Position numbers and translations under genes: made by a program. Positions 3,541 through 12,587 of a DNA stretch of 64,000 nt are shown in pieces (position 1 is the first letter of the stretch; each line of letters opens with the position of its first letter). The notes beneath the pieces are model-generated. The model ran no database searches. It saw only the letters and a program-made list of their open reading frames with translations, and was not told the origin of the DNA. Origin of the DNA: Peredibacter starrii (GTDB lineage: Bacteria > Bdellovibrionota > Bacteriovoracia > Bacteriovoracales > Bacteriovoracaceae); NCBI RefSeq assembly GCF_034259205.1, contig NZ_CP139487.1, positions 744,001-808,000 of the forward strand, written 5' to 3'.

Positions 3541-4381
3541 TATTTTTTAGCTGCAAGCTACCAATCAACAAAAACAAATATTTGTGTATCCAAAACTTGG
3601 CGTGAAATTTTCATCCAATGAAAAAAGGAGGGAAGGGAAAGTTCATGTTAAGCGCTCATCCAGTTCCATGTTAACGCGGACCCCTTGGTGTGACAGCACC
3701 AGGGGCTGTGGCAAAAGTCACAGTCTCACCCTTCCTGTTTTTTATTCTACGACATGTATTTCTCGAATGAAATGTCCAAAAGGTGCCAGGTTGCTTTCTC
3801 TGGAGGAAGTAAAAAATTCTCTCGGAGTCAGTTCTTATTTTTTAGACATACTTGTGTCTCTCAACAAAAACAAAAACTTGTGACTTTGAAACTTGGCCTG
3901 AATTTTTCATTAAAGGCAGAAGGAGGGAAGGGAAAGCTCATGTACCCCGCTGATTCAGTTCAATGCTACACGTTCCCCTTGGTGTTCCAGCACCTAGGGC
4001 CCCTGACAAACGCCACGGGTCTTACCCTTCCTTTTTACATTTTAACTTATTCTCTGAATGGAGCCTATGTCCAAAAGGTGCCAGGTTGCTTTCTCTGGAG
4101 GAAGTAAAAAGTTCTCTCAGAGGCAGTTCTTATTTTTAGACAGTAGTTGTGTCTCCAACAAAAACCAAAACTTGTGAATTTGAAATTTGGACTGAATTTT
4201 TCATTCAAGTCAGAAGGAGGGAAGGGAAAGCTCATGTTACTTGTTTATCCAGCTCATCGTTAACGTGGACCCCTTGGTGTTACAGCACCCTTGGTTCTGA
4301 AAAACTTCAGAATCTTGCCCTTCCTAATTTGTATTTTAACTCATTCTCTGAATGAAGCCTACGTCCAAAAGGTGCCAGGTT
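3541..4381. repeat. tandem array of ~295-bp structured repeat units (2.85 copies)
   Basis: Three head-to-tail units lie at 3541-3835, 3836-4130 and 4131-4381 (the last truncated). The anchor GGTGCCAGG occurs at 3782, 4077 and 4371, and GGAGGGAAGGG also recurs once per unit. Edges are conserved and the middle third is diverged. Each unit has two adjacent hairpins. Hairpin I has stem CCCCTTGGTG / CACC.AGGGG at 3681-3705 and its counterparts in units 2 and 3, with unit 3 weaker. Hairpin II (3706-3723, 4000-4019, 4295-4312) has a different stem sequence in each unit but keeps pairing and an AAAA/AAAC loop. The array ends directly at the RAYT transposase gene. Open frames inside it do not resemble proteins. 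Confidence 0.9.
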
Positions 4382-4385
4382 GATT

Positions 4386-5018
4386 ATGACTAGACCATTG
4401 ATTTTAAAGTCGGCAGTCCATCCCTATCACGTCTCTGCTCGTACACAGAGCGGGGACTTTTTCCCTATATCTTTAGATGAGGTTTGGGCGATCATGCTGG
4501 ATGAATTACAATGCGCTCGCAAAATCCACAATCTTTGCATTCATGCATTCGTATTGATGGGTAATCACTTTCATCTTCTCTGTCATACGCCCAACGAAAA
4601 CTTAGATCAAATTATGCATCAGTTTATGCGAAACACTTCTTTAAGAATCCGTCGTCAATCAAAGTCCTCTTTCCCATTGTGGGCAGGACGATACCGATGG
4701 AGCTTGATTGAGTCTCAAAATCATTACTACCAAGTGTATAAATATATTTATCGTAATCCTATCCGGGCCAAAATGGTTTCAAAGGTTGAGCACTATCCAT
4801 TTTCCACTTTGAAAGTCTCTTCATTTCCGATTCATTCCTACATTGCAATGTCATTCGCAGGAGAAGAAGGAGAACGTTTGTGGTTGAATGAGCCTTTTGA
4901 TAAAGAAGCCGAGGGCCTCATAAAGCTCGGCCTTAAGAAGCAGTACTTTGATGTTAATAAACGGAAATTAAAAATCTTCAACCGACTAACGGTCCCTAAT
5001 ATACCACCTCACGAGTAA
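4386..5018 (+). CDS. REP-associated tyrosine transposase (RAYT, Y1 / IS200-like)
   Basis: The 210-residue product from the ATG at 4386 starts MTRPLILKSAVHPYHV, as RAYT proteins do. A TTG two codons upstream is possible but less likely. The HUH metal motif is NHFHLLCH (His 61 and His 63). The tyrosine helix is YYQVYKYIYRNPIRA (Tyr 114-120). RAYTs are single-strand DNA nucleases that cut and move palindromic repeats next to their own gene. Here the gene follows unit 3 of the 295-bp array with no gap, which suggests that the array is its substrate. The 3' end overlaps the convergent downstream gene by 23 bp. The protein looks intact. Confidence 0.92.
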   Translation: MTRPLILKSAVHPYHVSARTQSGDFFPISLDEVWAIMLDELQCARKIHNLCIHAFVLMGNHFHLLCHTPNENLDQIMHQFMRNTSLRIRRQSKSSFPLWAGRYRWSLIESQNHYYQVYKYIYRNPIRAKMVSKVEHYPFSTLKVSSFPIHSYIAMSFAGEEGERLWLNEPFDKEAEGLIKLGLKKQYFDVNKRKLKIFNRLTVPNIPPHE

Positions 5019-5966: not shown

Positions 5967-7280
5967 ATGAAGCTAAGCATCATTGGCACTGGATATGTCG
6001 GTCTTGTAACAGGAACTTGTTTTGCAGAGATGGGTCACGATGTGACTTGTATCGATATCGACGCTGCGAAAGTTGAGCGCATGAAAAAAGGCGAGTGTCC
6101 AATTTATGAGCCGGGTCTAGAACCTCTAATGCAGTCAAACTACAAAGAGGGCCGCCTTCACTTTGCCAATAACTATGATTCAGTAACTAAAGCTGAAGCA
6201 ATTTTTCTAGCAGTAGGTACTCCATCATCTGATGATGGCCAAGCTGATCTTAAATATGTTTTTGGTGCTTGTGATTCAATCATTCCTTATCTTCAAGATG
6301 GTTCAATCGTTGTTGTGAAATCAACTGTACCAGTTGGAACAGGAAATAAAGTTCGCGAGTACATCAAAGGTAAGACTAATAAGAAATTCTACGTTGTGAA
6401 CAACCCTGAGTTCCTTAAAGAAGGTTCTGCGGTTGATGATTTCATGAAGCCAGAGCGTATCATCATCGGTGCTCAAGAAATTGAAGCAGCTCAAAGAATC
6501 GATGATCTTTATGAGCCATTCAATCGTCAGGTGAAGCGTACAATTCACATGAGTAACATTTCTGCAGAGATGACAAAATATGCAGCTAACTGTTTCCTTG
6601 CGACTAAGATCTCGTTCATGAACGAAGTTGCTCGTCTTTGTGACATTGTTGGTGCGGATGTTGAAGAAGTTCGTCACGGGATCTCAACTGACTCACGTAT
6701 CGGTTCTCAGTTCTTGTACCCAGGTCCTGGTTACGGCGGTTCTTGTTTTCCGAAAGATGTGAAAGCTTTGGTTTTCACAGCTAAAGAACATGGCGCTCGT
6801 TTCAAGATCGTTGAAGCTGTTGAAGAAGTGAACAAAGAGCAGAAGAAGTATCTTGTATCTAAAGTTAAGAAGCATTTCAAAGACGATCTTAAAGGCAAGA
6901 CTTTCGTTCTTTGGGGAACGGCTTTCAAAGCTAACACAGATGATATCCGTGAAACTCCAGCGATTGATACAGCGATTGCTCTTCACCAAGCTGGTGCTAA
7001 AGTTCGTTTCCATGATCCAGAAGCTGCCGATAACTTCGAGAAGCTTATGGGCCAGATGAATATTCCTGTAGATCAATTTGAAAACAAATACGACGCTCTA
7101 AACGGAGCTGATGGCCTTCTTATCATTACTGAGTGGAAGCAGTATCGTGCTCCGGATTTCGAAGAGATCAAATCACGTCTTAAGACGCCAATCATCTTCG
7201 ACGGAAGAAACCTGTACAATACGAAAAAAGTGTTGGAGATGGGATTCACATACTACGCAATTGGGAAGGCGATTAAGTAA
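5967..7280 (+). CDS. ugd: UDP-glucose 6-dehydrogenase
   Basis: The enzyme oxidises UDP-glucose to UDP-glucuronate with two NAD+, feeding capsule, exopolysaccharide or LPS synthesis. The 437-residue length is normal for bacterial Ugd. The Rossmann motif GTGYVGLVTG is at residues 7-16, the linking helix region is KYAANCFLATKISFMNE, and the catalytic cysteine lies in GYGGSCFPKDVKAL. The C-terminal UDP-binding domain contains WGTAFKANTDDIRETPA. Start at ATG 5967, with GGAG about 12 nt upstream. It fits the envelope-sugar genes around it (galE, glycosyltransferases, the O-antigen ligase-like gene). Confidence 0.96.
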   Translation: MKLSIIGTGYVGLVTGTCFAEMGHDVTCIDIDAAKVERMKKGECPIYEPGLEPLMQSNYKEGRLHFANNYDSVTKAEAIFLAVGTPSSDDGQADLKYVFGACDSIIPYLQDGSIVVVKSTVPVGTGNKVREYIKGKTNKKFYVVNNPEFLKEGSAVDDFMKPERIIIGAQEIEAAQRIDDLYEPFNRQVKRTIHMSNISAEMTKYAANCFLATKISFMNEVARLCDIVGADVEEVRHGISTDSRIGSQFLYPGPGYGGSCFPKDVKALVFTAKEHGARFKIVEAVEEVNKEQKKYLVSKVKKHFKDDLKGKTFVLWGTAFKANTDDIRETPAIDTAIALHQAGAKVRFHDPEAADNFEKLMGQMNIPVDQFENKYDALNGADGLLIITEWKQYRAPDFEEIKSRLKTPIIFDGRNLYNTKKVLEMGFTYYAIGKAIK

Positions 7281-8819
7281 TTAAAAAGGTGGAGTTTTCG
7301 AGTTACATGAAATAATCCAAGGGTATTGTTTAATATCTATATCAGTATATGATGTCGATATATGAATGTTTTTATAACCCCTAAGGAAAATTTTGTGAGA
7401 TTCGATCTCTCCTTTTATCCCATTAGATAGATCAGAGTCCACGTAGATAGGGATGTCAGAATCAAATTTTTCTGAGGAATTCAAAAAATCGTCGACTGTA
7501 CTAAAGGTTGCGAGATCTATTTGACTTCTCCTCGCTGCATTTTTCCATGCAAGTTGAAGAAATTTATCATCATCGATAAAAACAATTCTTTCCGGGTGAA
7601 ATACTCGAACCGGAATTTCAACAATGAATTCTGTACAATTAGGTTTAGAATCAAGGTAAAGATCTCCTCCAACTTGAAGAAGAAACGACTTAAGACTAGA
7701 TAATCCTATCCCGTTACCATTTTTTTTTGTTGTAAAACCTGGACTAAAGACTTTATTACGTATCGCTTCGGGGATTCCCTTACCATCATCTATTAGATGT
7801 AGGCGTAACCTATCTTCATCGTAATAAGAGGTTAATCTAATCTCTGTGGCCCCTGCCTCAGATGAATTCCTTCCTAAATTCATTAGTATATTTTTAAAAT
7901 CGAACTCACTAATTTCAATTTGAACTGAGTTCGGAATAATTATCAGGATTTTCAAATCGATTCCAAAAAGGGTGAGTAACTGCTCTTTAATATTAACAAG
8001 AGAATTTTGAACAGAGAATGTATCTAATTGGTTTTTGATCCCTAGAAGGCTATTAATATGGTAATCAATCTCACGGATACTTTTTTTAAGCTGAGATTGC
8101 GTTAGCTGTTGGCCCTCTGACATAATATTCAATGCGAGAATAGGATTTCTAATGTCATGTACTACTTTTTTAGCAAGTTTGAAGTAAGCTTCATTTTTTT
8201 CATACTGACGGATGTCCTCCTTCAGTTCGAAAAGTTTTTGGGAGATGAAGCTGAATTCATTTGGAGATTGGGTGTCGCTGCTTTCGGTAATTGATTTCTT
8301 TAACTCTTCTATTGGAGCAAGAAGATTTTTCCTGAAAAAAGATACTAGTACAAAGCATGTGAAAGCATAAAAAAATGCAGCTAGAAAAAATAGGTATTCT
8401 GCCTCAGCCTCTAAGAAATGATAAAATGAATAATGAAATCTATAAAATAGCAGAAGTTTCCTTGCGTTGATTGTAATTTCAATTTTTGAAAAAGACCTAT
8501 CAGAAAGTAAGCACAGATTCCTTGTAGTTGATAAGCTATTTGTGGAAATGAGGTCACAGTTTTTATCATACAACATCAATTCTTGGACCAAGGTCTTACG
8601 TTGTAAATCTCTTAATATAGAAGGATAATTTCTATCCAGAGTGTGATTGTTAAGTACATTCGTGCTAGCCTGAATACGGCGATGAATGTCCTCTGTCTTA
8701 CTTTTTTTGAAGAAGAAGTACGATGACCCTCCCATTAGAATAGTTAGAACAACAGCATATACAGCTGCTAGCTTGAAAATATGCAGATATGCTTTTCTGA
8801 ACAGAGACTTCGGTTTCAT
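7281..8819 (-). CDS. hybrid sensor histidine kinase with C-terminal receiver domain
   Basis: The 512-residue protein has membrane helices at about 12-36 and 139-161 that flank a periplasmic sensor domain of ~100 residues with no recognised family. The cytoplasmic part has the H box KKVVHDIRNP (His 221), N box ILMNLGRNSSEAG (Asn 314-318), G1 IDDGKGIP and G2 GNGIGLSS. From about 410 there is a receiver-like domain with acidic cluster IDDD (416-418), likely phospho-acceptor Asp 461 in IYVDSDLSNG, Thr/Ser at 488-490 and Lys 508 near the end. It is divergent from the peptide/SBP/YcaO genes, 67 bp away, and shares their AT-rich composition, so it may sense the peptide. No separate response regulator is nearby. 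Confidence 0.88.
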   Translation of the reverse strand: MKPKSLFRKAYLHIFKLAAVYAVVLTILMGGSSYFFFKKSKTEDIHRRIQASTNVLNNHTLDRNYPSILRDLQRKTLVQELMLYDKNCDLISTNSLSTTRNLCLLSDRSFSKIEITINARKLLLFYRFHYSFYHFLEAEAEYLFFLAAFFYAFTCFVLVSFFRKNLLAPIEELKKSITESSDTQSPNEFSFISQKLFELKEDIRQYEKNEAYFKLAKKVVHDIRNPILALNIMSEGQQLTQSQLKKSIREIDYHINSLLGIKNQLDTFSVQNSLVNIKEQLLTLFGIDLKILIIIPNSVQIEISEFDFKNILMNLGRNSSEAGATEIRLTSYYDEDRLRLHLIDDGKGIPEAIRNKVFSPGFTTKKNGNGIGLSSLKSFLLQVGGDLYLDSKPNCTEFIVEIPVRVFHPERIVFIDDDKFLQLAWKNAARRSQIDLATFSTVDDFLNSSEKFDSDIPIYVDSDLSNGIKGEIESHKIFLRGYKNIHISTSYTDIDIKQYPWIISCNSKTPPF

Positions 8820-8866: not shown

Positions 8867-8886
8867 TCGATGAAGGAGATACAAAC

Positions 8887-9048
8887 ATGAAAATTTTTAT
8901 CCTTAATATGCTTATTTTTTTTGGACTTTCGAAAGCTCAGGCTGGGGTTTCTCAGATTATCATAGAGTCAGTTGATCAATCTAAAGATGGAGTTAGTCCT
9001 GCCCAGTTCAAACCTGATTCGGATGGGACTGGATGCAGCCGCTGCTAG
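8887..9048 (+). CDS. 53-aa secreted-type peptide with CSRC terminus; candidate RiPP precursor or pheromone
   Basis: This short gene has a strong ribosome site (AAGGAGAT, 7 nt before the ATG). The product begins MKIFILNMLIFFGLSKAQA, a convincing Sec signal peptide with an AQA cleavage site, followed by a 34-residue hydrophilic part that ends SDGTGCSRC and then a stop. The only cysteines are residues 50 and 53, and Thr, Ser and Cys are the residues that YcaO enzymes cyclise. Its last 16 bp overlap the start of the peptide-binding lipoprotein gene, and YcaO follows, so the three are one transcription unit. Precursor or pheromone function is inferred from this context. No family is recognised. 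Confidence 0.7.
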   Translation: MKIFILNMLIFFGLSKAQAGVSQIIIESVDQSKDGVSPAQFKPDSDGTGCSRC

Positions 9049-10501
9049 TAATCTTAAGTTTTCTTATGTTTCTTATCGGCTGCTCAAAGGAAGTGAATGT
9101 GATTACTGTGTCTTTGAATCCACGAGAGGCCTTCAGTAGCCTGGATCCTATGGCCATACAATATACCAATGAATTCTATCTCTTAGAGAATTTAACTACA
9201 CGATTAGTTTCATTCGATGAAAATGGTGAATATCAGCTTGAGCTGGCTTCTAGTATTAATAAAATCAGCGAATACGAATACGACGTTAAAATAAGAAAGA
9301 CGTATTTTAGTAATGGTGACCTCGTAACTTTGAAAGATGTGAAACATTCTATTGAGCGATCATTGCAAGGAACTTCGCACACAAATCTGAAAGATTATAT
9401 AAGTGAGATCCTCTTATCTGAAGACAGCTTGAAAATAAAATTAAAAAAAGCCTCGAGATCATTTTTTTACTATCTTTCGCTCCCAGACTTAGGGATCCTT
9501 CATTCTAGTCAATATTCAAAAAAGACTCTTCTTGCCGCCGATTTTACTGCCATTTCATCCGGACCTTTTTATTACAAAATAGATGGAAGTAGTTTCAGTC
9601 TTTTGAAGAATAAGTATTATAATCTTGGAGTAGTTAATTATCCTGATGAGATTAGGTTAAGAAATCCTTTTAATGAAAATTCAATTTCACTCCTAAAGTC
9701 AGGGGATTAGACCTTGGACAGGTTAGTGTTAAGGACTTTTTGTCGGAACGGACATTGAACGAAAACTTACGTGTTATAGGGGTTCCTTCGGATTCATTAA
9801 CCTATTTGTATTTTAATGAGAATGCAAAAGGTTTCAAAGATGATAAGCACCGGCTATGGATTAAAAAATTAATACTTGAAAACTTCTCAGTACCTAAATC
9901 TCTCCATCAATTTGCTCGTCGGAGTGTTCAGTATTTTCCGCCAGAGTCAAAAGCATATATACCTGAAACACAGATTGACTCGATTGTAAGGTCTAATCTT
10001 CCAGCTAGTCCTCCAAAGGACTTCCCAAAAAAAGTTATTATCCATACGTATTCAACTGTTTATAACGTAACGATTGAAAATCTTGTTAGGCAACTTGAGA
10101 AGATACCTGATGTCAAAGTTGAAATTAAAAATGATATTAAACCTGCAGACTACATTAATAAAATGAAGTCTGGGGAATTCGAAATTTTCTTGAATGTCAT
10201 GTCAACGGACTTTCGGACCCCTGTTGAGGCAATTAATTTTGAATTTTTCTCTGCTGATTCTGTCCTTAGGGATAAAGATGGCAGCGTGAGTAGAAATTTT
10301 GAAAGATACCAAGCTGCACAAGATGGCATAGAGGAGATTAAAAGCCTTCAGGAGATTTCAAAGACAATCTTGTTAAGTGATCAGGTCATTCCATTGTTCC
10401 ATTCTGCTATCCCGTTTGTTTACAATTCAGACAAGGTCGATCTAAGTGATTTGAATCATCTATTCATTCTGAATTTTTGGAAGATCAAGAGTGGTAGATG
10501 A
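9033..10501 (+). pseudogene. peptide-binding ABC transporter lipoprotein (SBP_bac_5), one frameshift
   Basis: Two adjacent frames make one extracellular solute-binding protein of family 5 (DppA/OppA type). The first, from ATG 9033, begins MQPLLVILSFLMFLIGCS, a lipoprotein signal with lipobox LIGC, and includes LASSINKISEYEYDVKIRK, typical of the family, before a TAG at 9708. The second continues LDLGQVSVKDFLSERT up to 10501. Adding one T to GGGGATTAG near 9705-9709 would restore ...SGDLDLGQV..., so a single-base deletion or a sequencing error splits the gene. The total is about 489 residues, near family length. The 3' end overlaps YcaO by 4 bp (ATGA). No permease or ATPase genes are adjacent. 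Confidence 0.85.
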
Positions 10502-11484
10502 AACTGAAAAATCTTGTCGATGATTTAGTTCAGAAGCATAGCCTTAAATATTATTTTTATAATAAGGAAGCATTTTCAGATTTGTATCCCGCTGCATATT
10601 TGAAGATTGATTATAAAGGAAAAAGTTACGAAGCTTGGGGCGTTTCCAAAGGAGACAAAGATTTAGCTTTCTTTAAAGCATTGGTTGAATTGATTGAAAG
10701 AATAAGTATTTCTGAAACATGTGGATATTTTTTTAAAGAGAATCGTTTTTTTGGAGAAACTGTCACTTTAACTCAAATTTCTCAAAAGTTCGCTGTTGGA
10801 ACTAAGTTATTAAATTCTGACAATTCGAATGGAGCAGCTGTTCATCTTACTAAGTCGAAGGCAATAGAGTCAGGGCTCAACGAGCTGATTGAGAGGCATA
10901 CAATCTTGTCTGCTCTTTATCTTAATATCCCGCCTTTGCCCTATACTGGTAAGGTAATTTGCCTTAATGTTTTGGAGAAATATAAAATTAAATTCTACTA
11001 TTGGGGCTCAAACAATAGATATGTTGTAGTTGCTGTTCATCTATTGGATAACGGTGGTCTTCAATTCTCTCATGCGTGTTCCAAGAAATTAGATTCTGCT
11101 GTTTTGAAGTCATTTGAGGAGCTAACTCCAAATATAATATCGCAATTTGACAATCCCGTCGTTGTTAAGGATTTTGCTGTTAGAGAAGGAAGCATAAAGA
11201 GTTTTAATTTGTATTGGAAATATAGTGGAGATAGGCGGGTCCTTGATTTTTTTAATTCCAAGAGAGAGAGAGTTTCATCTCAAATTCCAGTGCTCAAAGA
11301 TATTTATTATTCAGAAATAAATATCTCAGAGGTATTTCAAAAGATAGGCTATCCCTTTTGTTGCCTTAAAGTTATATCCCCACAAGCTCAGCAGTTATTT
11401 TTTGATAATTGGAATGAAAAGTATATTCACCCAGATATTTATATCCCCGGACGTTTACCAGCTTTCCCTCACATTATTGCCTAG
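10498..11484 (+). CDS. YcaO-domain protein (stand-alone)
   Basis: YcaO enzymes use ATP to activate a peptide backbone amide, giving azolines, thioamides or amidines. The 328-residue product has the ATP/Mg-binding pattern: ALVELIERIS (Glu 64, Glu 67, Arg 68), then SNGAAVHLTKSKAIESG (110-126) and NELIERH (Glu 129, Glu 132, Arg 133). The C-terminus GRLPAFPHIIA is a variant of the proline-rich tail of azoline-forming members. No E1/ThiF-like partner, dehydrogenase or TfuA-like gene is next to it. It is translationally coupled to the solute-binding gene. The AT-rich codon use differs from the flanking glycosyltransferase and ugd, suggesting transfer. The family is fairly sure but the substrate is unknown. 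Confidence 0.88.
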   Translation: MKLKNLVDDLVQKHSLKYYFYNKEAFSDLYPAAYLKIDYKGKSYEAWGVSKGDKDLAFFKALVELIERISISETCGYFFKENRFFGETVTLTQISQKFAVGTKLLNSDNSNGAAVHLTKSKAIESGLNELIERHTILSALYLNIPPLPYTGKVICLNVLEKYKIKFYYWGSNNRYVVVAVHLLDNGGLQFSHACSKKLDSAVLKSFEELTPNIISQFDNPVVVKDFAVREGSIKSFNLYWKYSGDRRVLDFFNSKRERVSSQIPVLKDIYYSEINISEVFQKIGYPFCCLKVISPQAQQLFFDNWNEKYIHPDIYIPGRLPAFPHIIA

Positions 11485-11495
11485 CTGCTTCAATA

Positions 11496-12587
11496 CTAGC
11501 TACTAAAGATTTCTTCAAGACGATTCAAATTCACTTTCGAATCAAACTCTCTCTTCACTTTCCCAACACCATTCTCCACAACCGCCGCATTCGGATTACC
11601 ATTCTTAAAACTAGCTACAATCTTCGTCATAGCTTGAACATCAAAAGGCTTCACCAACCAGCCGGTCTTACCATCTTCAACGATCTCCGGATTTGAACTA
11701 ATGTCCCAACATACTGTCGGTAGACCATATTGGAGAGTTTCAATAAGTGTATTCGCCGAACCTTCATAAAGACTCGTGAACACAAACACTTCAAGTGAAT
11801 TAAAAAACGCCGGCATATCACTAACATGACCAAGAAGCTTCACTTGCTCCTGGAGCCCAGCTTCATCAATCATCTTCTGAAGATCTTTATGAAGTTCACC
11901 CTCACCAGCGATAAGAAGTTTGAAGTTCATGCCATCAGCTTTAAGAAGTTTCGCCATCTCAATCAAATATTTCTGACCTTTCTGTTCTGTCAGACGTCCA
12001 GCATTTCCAATAACAACTTCATTACCTTTCTTCTCATAAAGCTTCTTACTCTTATCAACTTCCTTCGAGGTATCCACACCATTATAGATCAGAACCATTT
12101 TATTCTCAGGAAACCAAGACTCGTTACCTTGTTTAAGACTGCGACCAATTTCCTTCGAATTCACCACAACGTGAGTCAGCACATTCGTGAACAAGAAACG
12201 GTTAAGCCACGTATTTCGAAGTGGGTGAGGCATCCCACGGCGATAAATGATTTTCTTAACACCTGCAATTCTAGCAGCTAGGCCAGCAAGCTTTAAATCC
12301 GCCGGTAAGTTAAGCACAATTGCATCCACGCCTTTAACTTTGAAGAAAACAGCCAGTGTTAAAACCTTAACTGGGTTTAAGAAGCTTAGATTTCCTACAT
12401 GAAAACGAAACACATCCAGACTTTCACGCACACCTTTATTCCCAAGTTCCGAACGCATGTTCGTAAGAAGGAGAACCTTGTTACCTCTGCGAATGAATTC
12501 CTTGGCCGTCGTGAAGTGCCACTTCTCTCCGCCTCCCCAGGCCTTGTTAGAGTTAAAGAAGCAAACAGTCTTTGTCGGAGTCGTCAT
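11496..12587 (-). CDS. glycosyltransferase family 4
   Basis: The 363-residue protein begins TKTVCFFNSNKAWGGGEKWH, the acceptor-side glycine-rich loop of GT4 retaining transferases. The donor-side domain contains VVIGNAGRLTEQKGQKYLIE and the EX7E motif region FTSLYEGSANTLIETLQYG, both diagnostic for the Glycos_transf_1 domain. It probably adds a sugar to LPS or another surface glycan at the cytoplasmic membrane face. It is convergent with the YcaO gene, with 11 bp between them. The donor sugar cannot be told. Confidence 0.92.
   Translation of the reverse strand: MTTPTKTVCFFNSNKAWGGGEKWHFTTAKEFIRRGNKVLLLTNMRSELGNKGVRESLDVFRFHVGNLSFLNPVKVLTLAVFFKVKGVDAIVLNLPADLKLAGLAARIAGVKKIIYRRGMPHPLRNTWLNRFLFTNVLTHVVVNSKEIGRSLKQGNESWFPENKMVLIYNGVDTSKEVDKSKKLYEKKGNEVVIGNAGRLTEQKGQKYLIEMAKLLKADGMNFKLLIAGEGELHKDLQKMIDEAGLQEQVKLLGHVSDMPAFFNSLEVFVFTSLYEGSANTLIETLQYGLPTVCWDISSNPEIVEDGKTGWLVKPFDVQAMTKIVASFKNGNPNAAVVENGVGKVKREFDSKVNLNRLEEIFSS

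Follow-up and report, generated by a model that had tools for sequence, protein, structure and literature searches.

A gene for a 53-aa peptide, found in a 64,000-nucleotide stretch of the Peredibacter starrii genome (contig NZ_CP139487.1, positions 744,001 to 808,000; here called the window), probably specifies a precursor for a RiPP-like signal peptide, which would be modified by a YcaO enzyme, exported, and sensed through an SBP and a histidine kinase (HK). The gene, its conservation, the cassette in which it lies, the link between precursor and maturase, and the YcaO fold with its ATP-site-type glutamates were observed directly.

The small frame and its locus

The features of the locus are listed in Table 1, in window positions. 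As an earlier note on this DNA had claimed, the frame at 8887–9048 is preceded by a strong ribosome site and begins with a predicted Sec signal peptide, in which K2 is followed by a hydrophobic region (residues 3–14, mean hydropathy 2.6) and by an AQA/G junction, with a likely cut by SPase I after residue 19. Also as claimed, the only Cys residues of the peptide are Cys50 (codon 9034–9036) and Cys53 (9043–9045), and the last 16 bp of the frame lie inside the next gene, an SBP frame starting at 9033. The TGC codon of Cys50 has its first two bases in common with the ATG of the SBP (9033–9035), and that of Cys53 lies outside this start codon.

Table 1. Features of the peptide locus and its flanks in the window
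Feature	Position	Strand	Description and basis
UGDH-like frame (UDP-glucose dehydrogenase by eye)	5967..7280		437 aa; flank
Divergent sensor histidine kinase	7281..8819	-	512 aa; Pfam HATPase_c 4e-14; homologues at cassette in L006, L007, and L009
Shine-Dalgarno AAGGAG	8873..8878	+	8 nt 5' of the peptide ATG; from sequence
Precursor frame, putative	8887..9048	+	53 aa, MKIFILNMLIFFGLSKAQAGVSQIIIESVDQSKDGVSPAQFKPDSDGTGCSRC; homologues in L006 and L007
Sec signal peptide, predicted (residues 1–19, AQA/G)	8887..8943	+	Hydropathy and sequence
C-terminal tail DGTGCSRC, putative core	9022..9045	+	Aligned with TGCGTC (L006) and SCSGC (L007); Cys-tail enrichment
SBP_bac_5 lipoprotein, N-terminal half	9033..9710	+	Signal with lipobox IGC; Pfam SBP_bac_5 5.3e-11
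SBP_bac_5, C-terminal half, different frame	9740..10501	+	Pfam; single intact frames in L006, L007, and L009
YcaO enzyme, putative maturase	10498..11484	+	328 aa, C-terminus PHIIA; Pfam YcaO 2.8e-09
Glycosyltransferase	11496..12587		Domain scan; flank

The same four genes, in identical order, were found at the related loci L006 and L007, whose peptides (MKKFLLRLLILVGFIRPYMGTAAVVIEIVSNDGEATSGGTERPGPETGCGTCIHSYH and MKIFLKLLIILGVLKPYTGIASLIKSKVPQAKDSVSSGGNGGSGGDRPMSCSGCIKC, respectively) both overlap the start of the SBP. Global alignment with the window peptide gave scores of 75.5 for L006 and 73.0 for L007, and neither score was reached by any of 2000 region-wise shuffles. Because homologous ORFs stand at the same position in both loci, with scores beyond those of the shuffles, these comparisons indicate that 8887–9048 is a genuine gene, under selection as a protein. 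The earlier note would have given the gene up had the peptide frame been broken in close relatives beside an intact SBP and YcaO; the two closest homologues are intact, and the broken gene of the window is the SBP. Its expectation of a conserved CSRC behind a variable middle held for the variable middle and for a Cys-bearing tail, but not for CSRC itself, which is CGTC in L006 and CSGC in L007. At the cassette of L009 there is a signal-peptide ORF of a different type (127 aa), and the L008 locus is interrupted by a contig end. No Pfam or NCBIfam family was matched by either of the two precursors scanned, that of the window (P0001) and that of L218.

The kinase has two likely transmembrane segments, an H-box (VVHDIRNP), and a receiver-like C-terminus (FIDDD/IYVDSD/SKTPPF). 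These features were identified by inspecting the sequence, and the C-terminus, which has no match to a Pfam receiver, is short, contains conserved Asp and Lys, and carries no output domain. No response regulator is present in the window cassette. The SBP frame is broken between about 9,683 and 9,740, close to a short G run, and the own-genome profile matches to SBP_bac_5 are split at the same place, the remaining five matches of that genome being unbroken. The break may be a mutation or else an assembly error; if it is real, the receptor of this copy may have been lost, with the peptide, YcaO, and kinase frames still open. A structure model of this SBP was too poor (pLDDT 49.4) and was left out of the results. 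The two sugar genes that flank the cassette in the window also flank it in L007, which belongs to another genus. Three genomes have an IS200-like transposase gene at most several kb from the cassette: in the window (4380–5018, called by Pfam Y1_Tnp) and, called by resemblance, in L007 (21–473) and L008 (10890–11513).

The structure model of the window YcaO (pLDDT 73.7, pTM 0.79) was matched by Foldseek to McbD, which was the top match, and to the YcaO proteins of M. kandleri and E. coli (6gri, 6ci7, 4q85). In an alignment of 22 cassette YcaOs, the residues E64, E67, R68, G112, E129, E132, and R133 are invariant, and we take these conserved Glu and Arg residues to be equivalent to the known ATP site of YcaO enzymes. 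Judged by its modeled fold and its ATP-site-type residues, the window protein is a member of the YcaO superfamily. An E1-like partner was sought with TIGR03882, which had no match in the own genome and none recurrent in the cassettes; in the 14 control genomes this model matched in five, never above its cut-off. The TfuA partner model PF07812 had no match in the own genome either. Since neither partner was matched there, the enzyme would act alone or with an unrecognised partner, and an azoline, a thioamide, or an amidine are the candidates for its product.

Cassettes in Bdellovibrionota and the link to the maturase

With the window YcaO as query, matches were obtained in 5 of 98 genomes, its own included. 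Profile searches found YcaO in 31 of the 129 genomes of the family, then in 44 of them with another profile and threshold, and in 124 of the 368 genomes of the phylum. Four of the loci have named records, which are MAGs of Bacteriovoracaceae or Halobacteriovorax. Scanning named genomes was too insensitive to gauge the spread beyond the phylum: one scan gave no matches, and another matched four records of Bacteriovoracaceae type and an archaeal YcaO whose fetched region contained no SBP.

We examined 97 YcaO regions (the window, L006–L009, L042–L081, and L121–L172), and in 66 of them a script detected a small signal-peptide ORF directly 5' of an SBP adjoining YcaO. The script assigned the remaining loci to three groups: 22 without an adjacent SBP, 4 with the SBP cut by a contig end, and 5 without the ORF. 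Three further loci with a precursor ORF (L139, L144, and L156) were recognized by eye, L156 having been missed among the 22 because the overlap of its SBP and YcaO was above the limit of the rule. Of the same 22, two (L059 and L079) start where their contigs do, and the others may contain different YcaO types. Other YcaO loci in the family that have no SBP next to them include L046, L048, L049, L060, L064, L077, L078, and L124.

The order precursor–SBP–YcaO predominates (54 of the 66 cassettes), and the remaining 12 have the order YcaO–precursor–SBP. A profile detected an HK at 65 of the 66 loci with a precursor, and HK homologues from 66 loci fall into one cluster. Both SBP and HK stand beside YcaO in all of the 20 non-family loci that were fetched first (L133–L152). 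An NtrC-type regulator was present in 30 of the 66 fetched cassette regions, and the six regulators that were scanned all had receiver and sigma-54 activator domains.

One uniform ORF rule, run over all SBPs of the 133 regions fetched, detected the small signal-peptide ORF before 65 of the 78 SBPs with YcaO nearby, vs 1 of the 32 without. Nine of these 32 have an HK nearby, and the rule fired for one of the nine. In L218, this sole positive without YcaO, the small ORF is immediately preceded by a radical-SAM gene (PF04055, 2.3e-22); an NtrC-type regulator lies upstream, and the SBP and HK lie downstream. The precursor thus tracks YcaO or radical SAM across the SBPs, and the ORF therefore goes with a RiPP-type maturase.

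A search of the phylum with the L218 enzyme gave matches, mostly weak, in 73 of 368 genomes at 1e-10. Among the 18 close radical-SAM loci (L218 and L249–L265), some of which are incomplete because contigs end, a small signal-peptide ORF follows the enzyme directly in 17, an SBP is present in 15, and precursor, SBP, and HK occur together in 14; the three distant loci L266–L268 have no SBP. Among NCBIfam models, those nearest to the enzyme describe SPASM-type maturases and heme enzymes, and none came near its cut-off. In the radical-SAM cassettes the small precursors form a family of their own, with what look like conserved signal-peptide sequences. What argues most strongly for the ORF as the substrate of the maturase is that two unrelated RiPP-type maturases occupy the same slot next to ORFs of one kind. 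As in RiPP loci generally, a gene-encoded precursor adjoins a putative modifying enzyme, here YcaO or radical SAM.

These counts also bear on what else the small protein might be. It is unlikely to be an unmodified exported signal or an accessory of the SBP, with the substrate of YcaO elsewhere (the SBP, the kinase, or another protein). That no known YcaO partner was found would suit such a role, as would the 23 of 66 precursors whose last 20 residues are free of Cys, because of which Cys cannot be the universal target. Against it, the ORF accompanies only one of the 32 SBPs without YcaO and is missing at eight of the nine SBP–HK pairs, and it is present again where radical SAM replaces YcaO, which fits the substrate of a maturase better than a helper of the SBP.

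Broad recurrence around the 66 cassettes is limited to HK, SBP, YcaO, and the response regulator. No gene family for a permease, exporter, peptidase-transporter, immunity protein, TonB receptor, or metal function recurs there, nor does a peptide ABC importer in which permease and ATPase accompany the SBP, the neighbors in the window being the two sugar genes. The earlier note had offered modification after import by the SBP as one way to reconcile a Sec signal with YcaO; this suggestion lost ground, since the absence of permeases around the cassettes disfavors import of the peptide.

The same neighborhoods weigh on two other functions. An antimicrobial or anti-prey role of the modified peptide, whose production the kinase and regulator would control, would be in keeping with RiPP-type maturases often yielding bacteriocins and with a phylum that includes predators; we hold it to be quite improbable, given the lack of a recurrent immunity gene, dedicated exporter, or peptidase-transporter around the 66 cassettes and the SBP in every one of them. 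We judge it very improbable that the product is a metallophore or metal buffer of the methanobactin or bufferin kind, which the SBP would recapture. The grounds for it are the CxxC of the window tail, SBP matches that include NikA-like models far below cut-off, and the existence, according to PMC12452194, of Sec-exported, Cys-containing RiPP precursors that bind copper; the tails, though, vary from locus to locus, many lack Cys, and neither a metal gene family nor a permease or TonB receptor is recurrent.

Tails of the precursors

The reading as a precursor of a modified signal peptide is further informed by the sequences of the tails. The small ORFs are hypervariable, and precursor lengths range from 47 to 205 aa. 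The 69 precursors used for counting Cys, including the doubtful ones of L157 and L136, form 61 clusters at 45% identity, and in 40 of these clusters Cys occurs in the last 15 residues, whereas 5000 shuffles of the mature parts averaged 16.9 (sd 3.0) and never gave more than 30. The frequency of Cys is 0.059 in the tails vs 0.008 in the remaining mature part. Most relatives have one Cys within a short variable tail, for example SSICIGGG, SDVICVGG, GTICF, PTCWGH, and SGKCEGI, and some have none, which rules out CSRC or CxxC as a signature of the family.

Gene overlap may account for part of this signal. Of the 66 precursors, L157 and L136 again included, 43 have a Cys within the last 20 residues. 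Among these 43, every tail Cys codon is a possible SBP start in 16, and in the other 27 at least one tail Cys is left unexplained by the SBP start, 9 of the 27 having no overlap at all. That the frame is a translational-coupling leader of the SBP, with Cys a by-product of the overlapping start codon, is an idea that the 16-bp overlap, the bases shared by Cys50, and the 16 start-codon cases invite, but with homologues of both signal peptide and tail at the L006 and L007 loci, and with precursors reaching lengths of 171 aa and more, it is extremely improbable, and as the sole cause of tail Cys it is ruled out by those 27.

Many of the long precursors have an upstream motif in common, near S-[IL]-x-[ED]-x-L-x-x-x-G-x-[ILV], which was obtained from a set without L157 and eight close homologues. 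Its likelihood gain was 299, vs 177–204 in six shuffles, with 60 restarts for the real data and 25 for the shuffles; some assigned sites lie elsewhere, and the motif is a mixture. The window peptide belongs to the short class, without this motif. In the L145 precursor (6936–7250, minus strand) the tail unit is duplicated, DTQPCEVC...DTQPCVGC, and this DTQPCxxC duplication resembles multi-core RiPP precursors. In the last 12 residues of seven close precursor pairs, the tails are identical in L063/L069, near-identical in L071/L076, and changed in the other five, so that this sequence comparison gives mixed evidence.

Proposed mechanism and related systems

We infer the following route through modification and its chemistry, Sec export, processing, binding, and signaling. 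The stand-alone YcaO would act in the cytoplasm on the C-terminal tail of the precursor, where the most likely target is Cys50/Cys53 or the preceding bond, giving an azoline or a thioamide. The signal peptide would then route the modified precursor through Sec, and signal peptidase, probably together with another protease, would free the tail. At the cell envelope, the tail would be bound by the SBP_bac_5 lipoprotein, which looks like a receptor beside a histidine kinase, and the loaded SBP would pass the signal to the divergent kinase, which in about half of the relatives probably works with the NtrC-type sigma-54 activator.

The earlier note had called a Sec signal on a YcaO substrate unusual, and this is in agreement with PMC12452194, in which such signals are a rare feature of RiPP precursors, yet one with a precedent, the use of Sec having been shown experimentally for bufferins. 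There, preliminary evidence also has the signal peptide forming part of the recognition sequence, and by analogy it is plausible that in our cassettes the signal peptide doubles as the recognition leader. Like the MNIO-modified bufferins and oxazolins, whose Sec-signal precursors with Cys motifs are modified before export (PMC12452194), the cassettes have a Sec-signal precursor; unlike them, with their MNIO, DUF2063/RRE partner, and metal role, they have YcaO without such a partner, plus a sensing module. No MNIO with DUF2063 was seen in this role, the recurring enzymes of the cassettes being YcaO or radical SAM.

In searches of openly accessible papers, we found no description of the cassette or of such peptide communication in Bdellovibrionota. 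In the passages considered, PMC8067016 merely lists RiPP among the cluster types of Bdellovibrionota, and PMC10352776, PMC10885120, and PMC12710340 do not describe the cassette.

With the azoline-forming LAP/TOMM systems (microcin B17, McbBCD), the cassettes share the YcaO fold, the Glu/Arg motif, and tails with Cys, Ser, or Thr; they differ in the missing TIGR03882 partner in the own genome, the missing exporter family, and a Sec signal in place of a plain leader. A YcaO enzyme may dispense with an E1-like partner, as among the stand-alone or TfuA-linked enzymes that make thioamides or amidines (bottromycin enzymes, McrA thioamidation, ItfB). The window enzyme has this possibility in common with them and differs in its neighbor genes and in the absence of a TfuA match from the own genome.

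The closest parallels in signaling are ComQXPA and agr, the peptide two-component systems of Gram-positive bacteria, which consist of maturase, precursor, kinase, and regulator. The Bdellovibrionota cassette is likewise small, with variable peptide tails and often a response regulator, and its HK is linked to precursor and maturase in 65 of 66 loci. In place of the prenyltransferase or AgrB, the maturase is YcaO or radical SAM, and the Sec signal peptide, the proposed SBP_bac_5 receptor, the NtrC-type regulator, and the Gram-negative hosts are further differences. Peptide pheromones are also sensed by Opp-type SBPs, for example in the control of conjugation in Enterococcus. The combination of SBP_bac_5 with a small, presumably exported peptide is similar here, as are the conjugation genes next to nine cassettes, but no permease is present and the signal would go to a kinase instead of being imported.

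At these nine cassettes (L058, L150, L154, L155, L156, L158, L161, L166, and L170), TrbC/VirB2-like pilin genes, with Pfam matches partly below cut-off, lie nearby on the opposite strand, and at four of them a TraC-like ATPase is also present. Control of conjugation is a lead to a possible output of the nine and is no finding for the window. In several genomes there are between two and four cassettes, whose tails differ, for example in G145 (DTCRCAR in L047, GLECIPVE in L121, and CFSECGEKG in L122), and G203 and G241 have both YcaO and radical-SAM cassettes. In a wider reading, which we regard as evenly balanced between right and wrong, these would be modular systems found throughout the phylum, in which interchangeable YcaO or radical-SAM maturases produce private signals that are exported by Sec and relayed through SBP and HK, with or without the NtrC-type regulator, in several channels per genome and with conjugation as the output in some lineages.

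Should the proposal be true, this would be the first YcaO-made pheromone known to us, and it would give ComQXPA a Gram-negative counterpart whose receptor is a lipoprotein. Two unrelated enzymes in the slot of the maturase would offer a ready test of chemically diversified signals with a constant reader module, and the cassettes make dozens of unannotated precursors accessible to genome mining, with a concrete output suggested by the cassettes next to conjugation genes. Bdellovibrionota is a phylum of largely predatory bacteria, and these predators and their relatives would own many private chemical channels made of modified peptides.
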